A program made the translations under genes and the position numbers. A DNA stretch of 64,000 bases from assembly GCA_947631565.1 (NCBI GenBank), contig CANRLV010000002.1, positions 1 to 64,000 of the forward strand, written 5' to 3'. The notes beneath the pieces are model-generated. The model did not search any database and was not told where the DNA came from. It was given only the letters and a program-made list of their open reading frames with translations. This DNA is from an uncultured Gemmiger sp. (GTDB taxonomy: Bacteria; Bacillota; Clostridia; Oscillospirales; Ruminococcaceae). Positions 2,186 to 63,966 of this stretch are shown here, piece after piece. Within the stretch, counting starts at the first letter, position 1. Each line of letters opens with the position of its first letter.

Positions 2186-3463
2186 ATGGCGGATTATTTC
2201 AAAATGACCCGCGGCGAGCTGGAGGCCGAGAAGGCAGCGCTCGAACAGGAATATGCCCGCTACAAGGCGAAGGGCCTCAACCTCAACATGGCCCGCGGCA
2301 AGCCGGGTCCCAAGCAGATGAACCTGGCCATGGAGCTGCTCAAGCTGGACGACTACACCGCCGCCGACGGTACCGATGCGCGCAACTACGGCAATCTTGA
2401 AGGCCTGTACGAGGCGCGCACGCTCTTCGGCGAGGTGATGGGCATCCGTCCAGAGGAAGTGTTCATGGGCGGCAATTCCAGCCTGCAGCTGATGTACAAT
2501 CTTGTCAGCATCGGGTACATGTTCGGCTTCCCGGATTCTCCCAAGCCGTGGAGCCAGGTCGAAAACCGCAAGTGGCTGTGCCCGGTCCCGGGCTATGACC
2601 GCCATTTCCGCATCACCGAGGAAATGGGCTTTGAGATGATCAACATCCCGATGAAGGAAGACGGCCCCGACATGGACCTGATCGAAAAGCTCGTCGCCGA
2701 GGATGATACCATCAAGGGCATCTGGTGCGTGCCGCAGTACTCCAACCCCGACGGCATCACCTATTCCGACAGCGTCATCAAGCGCTTTGCCCGCATGGAG
2801 ACGGCCGCCCCGGATTTCAAGATCTTCTGGGACGAGGCCTACATCGTCCACCACCTGACCACCAAGCCCAAGGAGACCGCCGTGCTGCTGCGCGAGTGCG
2901 AGCCCTACGGCCACGAGGACCGGGTGTTCATGTTCACCTCGACCAGCAAGATCACCTTCCCGGGCGCGGGGGTGTCGGCGCTGGGCTGCAGCACCGAGAT
3001 GATGAAATACGTCTGCAAGCGGTTCGAGGCGATGATCATCAGCTATGACAAGATGAACCAGCTGCGCCACGTCCACTTCCTCAAAAACAAGGCCGGGGTG
3101 CTCGCGCATATGCAGCGCCACCGCCGCCGCCTGGTGCCCTGCTTTGACGCCGTCAAGACCGCTTTCCGCGAGGAGCTGGCCCCCTGCGGCGACATCGCCC
3201 GCTGGACCGACCCCAAGGGCGGCTACTTCATCAGCCTGTATGTGCTGCCGGGCTGCGCCAAGCGCGTGGCCAAGCTGTGCAAGAGCTGCGGGCTCATCCT
3301 GACCGGCGCCGGCGCGGCCTACCCTTACGGCCATGACCCCGAGGACAGCCACCTGCGCATCGCTCCCACGTTCCCGAGCCTGTCGGAGGTCGAGGAAGCA
3401 TCCTACCTGCTGACCGTCTGCGTGCGGTTGGCGGTCGTTGAAAAACTGCTGGCCCGGCAATGA
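2186..3463 (+). CDS. PLP-dependent class I aminotransferase (MocR-like/aspartate-alanine aminotransferase type)
   Basis: MADYFKMTRGELEAEKAALEQEYARYKAKGLNLNMARGKPGPKQ; GIWCVPQYSNPDGITYS; FTSTSKITFPGAGVSALG (PLP lysine region). Confidence 0.85.
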   Translation: MADYFKMTRGELEAEKAALEQEYARYKAKGLNLNMARGKPGPKQMNLAMELLKLDDYTAADGTDARNYGNLEGLYEARTLFGEVMGIRPEEVFMGGNSSLQLMYNLVSIGYMFGFPDSPKPWSQVENRKWLCPVPGYDRHFRITEEMGFEMINIPMKEDGPDMDLIEKLVAEDDTIKGIWCVPQYSNPDGITYSDSVIKRFARMETAAPDFKIFWDEAYIVHHLTTKPKETAVLLRECEPYGHEDRVFMFTSTSKITFPGAGVSALGCSTEMMKYVCKRFEAMIISYDKMNQLRHVHFLKNKAGVLAHMQRHRRRLVPCFDAVKTAFREELAPCGDIARWTDPKGGYFISLYVLPGCAKRVAKLCKSCGLILTGAGAAYPYGHDPEDSHLRIAPTFPSLSEVEEASYLLTVCVRLAVVEKLLARQ

Positions 3464-11032: not shown

Positions 11033-11064
11033 GGAAGCGCCGGCCAGGTCTGGCCGGCGCTTCC
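11033..11064 (+). terminator. Stem-loop after gerAC-like gene
   Basis: GGAAGCGCCGGCCA..TGGCCGGCGCTTCC. Confidence 0.5.
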
Positions 11065-11070
11065 GTATAC

Positions 11071-11105
11071 AAAACGCGGTCCCTGCGCTGCTGCGCAGGG
11101 ACCGC
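11071..11105 (-). terminator. Terminator of fhs (minus strand)
   Basis: GCGGTCCCTGCGC..GCGCAGGGACCGC followed on minus strand by GTTTTG. Confidence 0.6.
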
Positions 11106-26544: not shown

Positions 26545-26582
26545 CGGCGGCCCCTTTCCGAACGTTCGGAAAGGGGCCGCCG
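26545..26582 (-). terminator. Perfect 38-bp palindrome, probable lacZ terminator
   Basis: CGGCGGCCCCTTTCCGAAC|GTTCGGAAAGGGGCCGCCG, immediately 3' of lacZ. Confidence 0.6.
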
Positions 26583-62234: not shown

Positions 62235-62417
62235 GTGCGCCTGCCGTGCGGCGGCAAAAGTCTGTTAAAGGCCGCGGGGGACTGCCGACAAGGACGGCGC
62301 GCCGCAGACCGTTGGCCCGGGCGATACGCTGCCGGTAAAGCATTTTTCTCCGCGCAGTCTTGACAGGGAAGCCCGTGCCGTGCAGCCCGTGCTGTGTTAT
62401 GGATTTCCGTATACATA

Positions 62418-62445
62418 ATTTCGCTAAAGATAAGTTTAGCGAAAT
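62418..62445. repeat. Perfect 28-bp inverted repeat with dif-like 11-6-11 architecture
   Basis: ATTTCGCTAAA-GATAAG-TTTAGCGAAAT. Confidence 0.85.
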
Positions 62446-62885
62446 ATAGGGGAGGGCAAAGGGCCTTGTTTTGCGGCGTTCCGGGGGCCTCGGCGTGCTC
62501 CGGCTGCCGCGCTCTGGCAGCGGGCGCATATATTACCATATAAATAAGTGACCTTATGGGGCACATTGGTTTTTGCAGCAGCGCTTTCCTTTGCCCGCAA
62601 GTTCGAATGGCTTATGCATCGATGCCAATACGGATCTCTTGCCTTATGATTGGCCGGTACGCTGCCGTACGGTTGTCAGTAGCATCGATGGCAGCCTCGG
62701 TGTATTTGTTCCTGCAGCGGGCTGCCGTGCAGCTGTACGCGGCTGGTTCGGTAATATATACTTGCCGAGACAGGCAGTTGGCTGGCTATGTTTCGCGGTC
62801 GACCAATGACTTGGTTTCCTGCCGCAAAGGTGTCCAGTTTACACGCTGACAGGCAAAACCGCGGCAAGGCAGTCCGCCACGCGCA

Positions 62886-62896
62886 ATTTCGCTAAA
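62886..62896 (+). repeat. Third copy of the 11-bp arm in the recombinase 5' leader
   Basis: ATTTCGCTAAA identical to left arm at 62418-62428. Confidence 0.8.
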
Positions 62897-62916: not shown

Positions 62917-63966
62917 ATGAGCAGCTACATCGATGTGGCCCACCCGGACCGCCATGCGCCGTACCTGGATATTCCGGACGACGTCATTGAGTACCTGCAC
63001 TATCTTGATTTTGTCAAGCAGCGCTCGCCGCGCACCGTCAACGGGTATTATCTTGACCTGCGCGGCTTTTTCCGCTATATGGCGCAGGAATGGGGCCTTG
63101 TCCCCCGCGGCACCGACCCGGAAAAGATCGACCTGACAGGCATTACCACACAGGATATCGCGAAGATACGCAAAAAAGATATTTTCGGCTATCTCGAATA
63201 TGCCCGCACCAACGACAACGGCCCCAAGGCACGGGCACGGAAATTATCGGCACTGCGCGGATTTTTTGGCTATTTATGCAATCAGGTCAATCGTTTGCAG
63301 CAAAACCCGACCGAGAACATCAGCCTCGGCGCGCCCAAAAAGACGCTGCCCAAGTACCTGACGCTGGAGGAATCCGTCCGCCTGCTCGAAAATATCCAAA
63401 GCGATTTCCATGAGAGGGATTATTGCATATTGACGCTGTTTTTGAACTGCGGTATGCGCTTGGCGGAGCTTGTCACCATCGATTTGTCCAGCTTCCGGGA
63501 CGATACCATCCGAATCATGGGCAAGGGCGGCAAGGAACGGCTCGTCTACCTGAACGATGCCTGCCAGAGCGCGCTGGAGCCCTATTGCAAGGCGCGGGCG
63601 GCGCTGCCGAATCTTGTCGACAAGGAGGCGCTGTTCGTCTCGAAAAAGACCGGCAAGCGGCTGACGGCGCGGCGCGTGGAGCAGATCGTGGCCCGCTGCC
63701 TGCAGTCGGCCGGTCTGTCGGGGCGCGGCTACAGCCCGCACAAGCTGCGCCACACCGCCGCCACGCTGATGTACCAGCACGGCAACGTCGATATGCTGGC
63801 GCTCAAAGAGATCCTGGGCCATGAAAACGTATCGACCACGCAGATCTACACCCACATCAACCAGCGGCAGTTGAAGGCGGCGGTGGCCTCCTCCCCGTTG
63901 GCCGGCATCAAGGCCCCGCCGCCGCCAAGCGCCTCAAAGCAGGACGCCGGCGAAGAAGACGGCTGA
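62917..63966 (+). CDS. Tyrosine recombinase, XerC/XerD-like
   Basis: N-terminal SAM-like domain; GMRLAELVTIDLSSF (catalytic R); HKLRHTAATLMYQHGNVDMLALKEILGHENVSTTQIYTHI (HxLRH, H, Tyr). Confidence 0.93.
   Translation: MSSYIDVAHPDRHAPYLDIPDDVIEYLHYLDFVKQRSPRTVNGYYLDLRGFFRYMAQEWGLVPRGTDPEKIDLTGITTQDIAKIRKKDIFGYLEYARTNDNGPKARARKLSALRGFFGYLCNQVNRLQQNPTENISLGAPKKTLPKYLTLEESVRLLENIQSDFHERDYCILTLFLNCGMRLAELVTIDLSSFRDDTIRIMGKGGKERLVYLNDACQSALEPYCKARAALPNLVDKEALFVSKKTGKRLTARRVEQIVARCLQSAGLSGRGYSPHKLRHTAATLMYQHGNVDMLALKEILGHENVSTTQIYTHINQRQLKAAVASSPLAGIKAPPPPSASKQDAGEEDG

Follow-up and report, generated by a model that had tools for sequence, protein, structure and literature searches.

A probable dif site with identical arms beside a distinct Xer recombinase gene in the Gemmiger group

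The window analyzed here is a stretch of 64,000 nucleotides from a bacterium whose genus has Gemmiger as its nearest named records. In this study, we found that a 28-bp palindrome within it is very probably, with a probability of about 92%, the chromosome-dimer resolution site (dif) of this Gemmiger-group bacterium, and that the gene starting 471 bp downstream encodes its recombinase. The polarity of a short motif around the site, the position of the site at the terminus, its conservation and its flank all point to dif. New in this work are the spread of such sites across the order Oscillospirales, a covariation showing that identical arms are selected, a polar flank, and copies of the site in phages. 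The features of the locus are the following.

62418..62428, + strand: left half-site of dif, an 11-bp arm, ATTTCGCTAAA; across the order it changes in concert with the right arm
62429..62434, + strand: core GATAAG, 6 bp, asymmetric; its consensus is TGNAAA once oriented by the flank
62435..62445, + strand: right half-site of dif, an 11-bp arm, TTTAGCGAAAT; identical to the left arm when reverse-complemented
62448..62454, + strand: asymmetric flank AGGGGAG, a KOPS-like polar motif 2 bp outside the right arm
62885..62896, + strand: isolated half-site, AATTTCGCTAAA, the third copy of the arm, just before the ATG of xer
62917..63966, + strand: xer gene, coding for a 349-aa Xer-type tyrosine recombinase; catalytic residues invariant in 22 orthologues

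The original prediction described a mismatch-free 28-bp inverted repeat of 11-6-11 architecture with a Xer-type gene downstream, and this description is exact. The sequence ATTTCGCTAAA-GATAAG-TTTAGCGAAAT occupies positions 62418-62445 of the + strand with no mismatch, its two arms of 11 bp are completely complementary, the symmetry extends neither beyond the outer bases nor into the core, and the ATG of the gene is confirmed at 62917. Neither the third arm copy at 62885-62896 nor the flank at 62448-62454 had been mentioned in it. Even allowing up to three mismatches, the 28-mer occurs only once in the window, and shuffled sequences contained none. Perfect 11-6-11 palindromes are expected at 0.025 per window under a first-order Markov model of the window make-up, and four were observed, dif site included. 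Hence, symmetry by itself is not decisive, and copy number and conservation have to decide. The other three palindromes (11035-11062, 11077-11104 and 26550-26577) have different, mostly GC-rich sequences, the first two being 42 bp apart, and are probably hairpins or terminators. The isolated half-site close to the xer start is kept in three close species only (G000, G017 and G028), the remaining intergenic DNA having diverged; it might serve autoregulation or be left over from a second dif. Upstream of dif, a TTGACA box is conserved in many relatives (window positions 62360-62400). In the window species, a near-perfect 13-bp tandem repeat (62370-62396) lies between this box and a -10-like region, and perhaps breaks the promoter.

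Copy number and conservation agree with a dif site. In its own 2.47-Mb assembly (89% complete, 140 contigs), the 28-mer is found once with up to three mismatches allowed. The same arms are present in 29 of the 35 genomes of the genus, nearly always in one copy each, so the anticipated single copy was borne out and the site is not REP-like. These arms are nearly invariant, the left one having a single substitution, in G003, and the cores vary (TGTAAA, TGCAAA, TGTAAG, GATAAG and others). Of the six genomes without the site, five are incomplete assemblies from which xer is missing too, and the contig of the remaining one, G022, stops 91 bp upstream of xer. Moreover, the adjacency of site and gene holds in all 28 genus genomes with a measurable distance, where the site lies upstream of xer by 17-520 bp; in G036, site and xer are on separate contigs. 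The intergenic DNA between them is largely diverged, unlike the arms. An exception to the single copy is G027, which has two additional full sites away from xer (L187:9660-9687 and L188:9023-9050). The cores of these extra sites are TCGGAG and TCGATG, their flank is of the AGGG type, and they may come from an integrated element, a second replicon or a binning error.

The position of the site at the replication terminus, as foreseen in the original prediction, holds in the two complete genomes of the genus. In G004 (single contig, 3,244,954 bp), dnaA is at 1,481,077 and the site at 3,130,526; in G026 (single contig, 2,991,239 bp), dnaA is at 2,701,646 and the site at 1,121,857. The distance from dnaA to the site is thus about half-way round the chromosome (50.8% and 47-53%). 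A site of the same kind lies at 1,538,859 in G044, a member of another family with a genome of 3,008,576 bp and dnaA at 352. In two further single-contig genomes, dnaA was not found within the first 10 kb, and both were left out of the position analysis. GC skew in G004 and G026 is positive as far as the site, and crosses zero about 15-45 kb beyond it instead of on it, a displacement that speaks against the dif reading.

In addition, the orientation of the hexamer GGGGAG flips at the site. In the window's own contig, the two orientations count 13:0 to the left of the site and 0:7 to its right; in seven relatives, they count 114:17 and 16:115, respectively. This flip alone places the terminus in the window's own genome, whose contig is not placeable on a chromosome. 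None of the remaining strongly biased hexamers of this contig, which are coding-strand-like words, flips equally cleanly at the site. In five further contigs, GC skew was too weak to place the terminus, and the polarity of AGGGGAG placed it. The known KOPS/SRS octamers GGGCAGGG and GAGAAGGG were discarded as polar motifs, their polarity being inconsistent in these genomes. The idea that dif keeps one orientation with respect to the replichores was likewise dropped because contig orientation is arbitrary.

Sites of this architecture extend across the order. The consensus MYYDYRCWAAA-N6-TTTWGYRHRRK, which allows both arms to vary at seven positions but would miss other arm types, had matches in 155 of the 396 order genomes, nearly always a single one; the reversed consensus, used as a control, matched only a handful. 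When the flank was added to the consensus, a single genome outside the order was matched among about 140 sampled from the class. The arm types found include ATTTCGCTAAA, ATTATACAAAA, ATTTCGCAAAA, CTTGCACAAAA, ACCGCACTAAA and ACTTCGCAAAA, among more, and the second arm usually matches the first. Among 24 distinct sites, 7 of the 11 arm positions covary, with 48 double arm changes against 14.7 in shuffles. The covariation score was equalled by none of 500 shuffles, and pairings slid out of register fail. Since both arms change together across the Oscillospirales, identical half-sites are under selection. Near xer, 46 of 48 sites are symmetric. Of the order-wide sites with an arm off the commonest type, 11 of 22 are fully symmetric, and several of the remainder are secondary copies. 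None of the 32 core types is palindromic.

Some matches in the order fall outside this pattern. Transposase-like genes of G226 are flanked by two imperfect dif-like sites (L348:169-196 and 3322-3349) at a distance of 3.1 kb, an arrangement similar to the dif modules known from Acinetobacter plasmids. In G193, from a family with XerD (f14), locus L360 (C6:144159-144186) carries the near-symmetric TGTTCGTATAA-TTCAAA-TTATACGAACT, then TTGGGGAA; it seems to be a variant whose inner ends are the canonical ATAA. The dif consensus matches seven times in G279 and three times in G154, possibly reflecting a site-multiplying element.

The product of xer has the catalytic set of the tyrosine recombinases. 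R181, H275, R278, H302 and Y311, together with the hairpin lysines K203/K206, are invariant in the 22 orthologues. The protein matches the structures of XerD, XerA and XerH by sequence, the XerH match being weak and C-terminal (64 bits). It stays below the equivalog cut-offs for XerC (214.8 against 335.15 bits) and XerD (191 against 329.6 bits), below that of the XerS model (139.7 bits, cut-off 267), and below the curated cut-off for archaeal XerA. In a tree built without XerS, XerH and XerA sequences, the 22 members of the order form one clade (100/100), apart from the XerD of the order and from E. coli XerC and XerD; XerS and XerA were judged by HMM cut-offs, and XerH through the PDB match only. 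By these curated cut-offs, the recombinase belongs to a distinct Xer clade and is not classified as XerC, XerD, XerS or XerA.

Does this protein act with a partner? A dif served by Xer and a second, divergent recombinase that the searches missed is unlikely, though the least improbable of the alternatives. Clear XerD proteins exist in 50 of the 108 genomes sampled from the order, and sometimes their genes are convergent with xer at the site, as in family f24 (L343, L344 and L349), where dif, then xer and then the convergent xerD form a cluster; in G076 (L351), dif adjoins xerD and not xer. On the other hand, no XerD was detected at E<=1e-75 among the listed members of the window's family (f1), and the other tyrosine recombinases of the complete genus genomes score well below. 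The best-conserved group of these was considered as a Xer partner and rejected: its members are 63-77% identical even between families, whereas xer reaches only 51% (to G044), which marks the group as mobile. One core Xer was found in the genus. Nor was a better canonical dif with a separate XerC/XerD pair found in the genus: there is none in G000 or G004, and elsewhere only single two-mismatch matches occur. The identical, co-evolving arms are also what one protein needs.

The suggestion that such perfect symmetry suits one recombinase stands in part. The arms are indeed identical and covary, but the Oscillospirales families that have retained XerD contain symmetric sites too, even adjacent to its gene. 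Symmetry is thus independent of XerD loss and only partly diagnostic, and it does not prove a single recombinase. The single-recombinase state of the window's family is firm only as a gene count; homomeric action at its dif is predicted.

With sites oriented by their core, the flank nnAGGGGAG stands just outside the right arm. Of 84 distinct sites, 71 have it on a single side, 1 on both sides and 12 on neither, against a background of 2.4%; this is the fair figure, because the information profile is biased at the AGGG columns by the choice of rows for the motif. AGGGGAG is biased to the leading strand by 47:5 and 51:5 in the two complete genomes, as expected of a KOPS/AIMS motif, and we infer that it may act on FtsK. 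The FtsK gamma domain is present in all six genomes tested. KOPS-type polar motifs are normally scattered along the chromosome, where they steer FtsK.

A mechanism for the dif reading can be proposed. Two protomers of one Xer protein would bind the two identical 11-bp arms, and FtsK would join the two sites of a dimeric chromosome at the septum, steered there by polar GGGGAG-type motifs converging on the site. Xer would then cut at the borders of the asymmetric 6-bp core and exchange strands, yielding two monomers. Binding, homomeric action, dependence on FtsK and the recombination reaction are predictions drawn from sequence. Given identical arms, direction could only come from the TGNAAA-like core and from the AGGGGAG outside one arm. 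We tentatively suggest, as a possibility with less than even chances, that a polar AGGGGAG built into dif at a fixed distance of 2 bp from one arm replaces, together with the core, the asymmetry of the arms: with one recombinase occupying two identical arms, it would tell which protomer is the first to be activated by FtsK.

The location of the site upstream of xer in every genus genome measured, the TTGACA-type promoter that ends just before it in several relatives, and the third half-site near the ribosome-binding region could also be explained if the palindrome were only an operator, through which Xer or another dimeric repressor controls xer transcription. We consider this very improbable, because single-copy sites persist away from xer. 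The distance is 6.5 kb in G044 and tens of kb in G258 and G323, site and gene lie on separate contigs in G036, and the site of G076 is the one beside xerD. The flank, moreover, stays with the site and not with xer, being present in G044 and in the extra copies of G027. In some species the site is inverted relative to xer, and flank and core turn together. Neither the flip of motif polarity at the site nor the presence of the arms in phages that have no xer fits an operator.

These phage copies are numerous. Nine viral contigs carry the ATTTCGCTAAA version of the site and 27 the ATTATACAAAA version. Three of these are pieces of chromosome and include xer as well as the AGGG-type flank, both of which are missing from the others. 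In L276, L278, L281, L282, L284 and most of L285-L311, the arms are exactly those of the host dif, the cores differ and the AGGGGAG flank is absent. The phage site of the inspected contigs is in or near head-packaging genes, either between terS and terL (L278, L284, L276 and L294) or downstream of the portal gene (L307, L309 and L292); the genes of L276 and the portal gene of L292 were assigned by sequence similarity to scanned contigs. This pattern looks as if tailed phages had repeatedly captured the dif arms of their hosts, and the dif-bearing viral contigs are likely Xer-exploiting tailed phages. Such capture constitutes independent evidence that the arms form a recombination site. The lack of the flank in the phage copies is expected if the flank serves FtsK control and not recombinase binding.

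Since the gene product is a tyrosine recombinase and phage genomes have the same arms, the site could in turn serve a mobile element as att, with the gene encoding the integrase of that element. The original prediction had left room for the att site of a Xer-exploiting element; for this copy the idea found no support, though phages carry mimics, and we regard it as highly improbable. The recombinase orthologue is present in 355 of the 396 genomes of the order, nearly always once. Around xer, no element boundary or phage gene was seen; the neighbors, named from sequence as a radA-like gene, a 308-aa gene and a tgt-like gene, appear to be chromosomal genes, and relatives also have the first two next to the site. 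The terminus position in complete relatives also argues against an att site. No strain with an empty site, lacking gene and site as one excised unit, was seen. Finally, an RNA hairpin or terminator in the xer leader, for which an 11-bp stem and a 6-nt loop would fold, can be dismissed almost entirely, as no U-tract follows the repeat, the spacing is exactly 6 bp, the repeat is conserved away from xer and in both orientations, and the AGGGGAG flank belongs to the site and not to the gene.

As dif, the site combines features of several known systems. The single-recombinase systems described in the open papers found are XerS/difSL and XerH/difH (both PMC5357621), XerL/dif of the Legionellales (PMC9765430), and XerA. 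XerS/difSL of streptococci and lactococci resembles the present case in having one recombinase (356 aa against 349 aa), a gene beside the site, a terminus location and a Gram-positive host; difSL, however, has unequal arms around a centre of 11 bp and a total length of 31 bp (PMC5357621), unlike the 11-6-11 design with identical arms found here. XerH/difH of Helicobacter and Campylobacter likewise has a single recombinase and a site near the gene, but imperfect arms of 11 and 10 bp instead of equal arms of 11 bp (PMC5357621). According to the available text on XerL/dif, that system shares with ours a single recombinase, perfectly symmetric arms and mimicry by a mobile element; its arms are 10 bp long (12 in Coxiella) and unlike any known Xer-binding motif, whereas ours have 11 bp, and the Legionella XerL gene is more than 400 kb from dif instead of adjacent (PMC9765430). 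The same text mentions no polar flank beside the XerL dif, and the likeness to XerL lies in site features and description. XerCD/dif of E. coli and B. subtilis has the same 28 bp arranged as 11-6-11, a single copy at the terminus and the FtsK gamma domain, but uses two recombinases on unequal arms, whereas here no XerD was found and the arms are identical. The inner ends of the arms also differ, being ATAA..TTAT in canonical dif and WAAA..TTTW here. A dif or Xer assignment for the Oscillospirales was not found in the open literature, which was the scope of the search, and the main text of Kono et al. 2011 does not mention the Ruminococcaceae.

The Oscillospirales, with Gemmiger, Faecalibacterium relatives, Anaerotruncus and Ruminococcus-like bacteria, are among the most abundant bacteria of the gut. 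In their genomes, the site marks the terminus in an assembly. Furthermore, the order offers a natural series from two recombinases to one, along which arm symmetry, XerD loss and FtsK signaling can be compared. Altogether, identical arms combined with a polar flank make it testable what orders strand exchange when the half-sites and the enzymes are the same.
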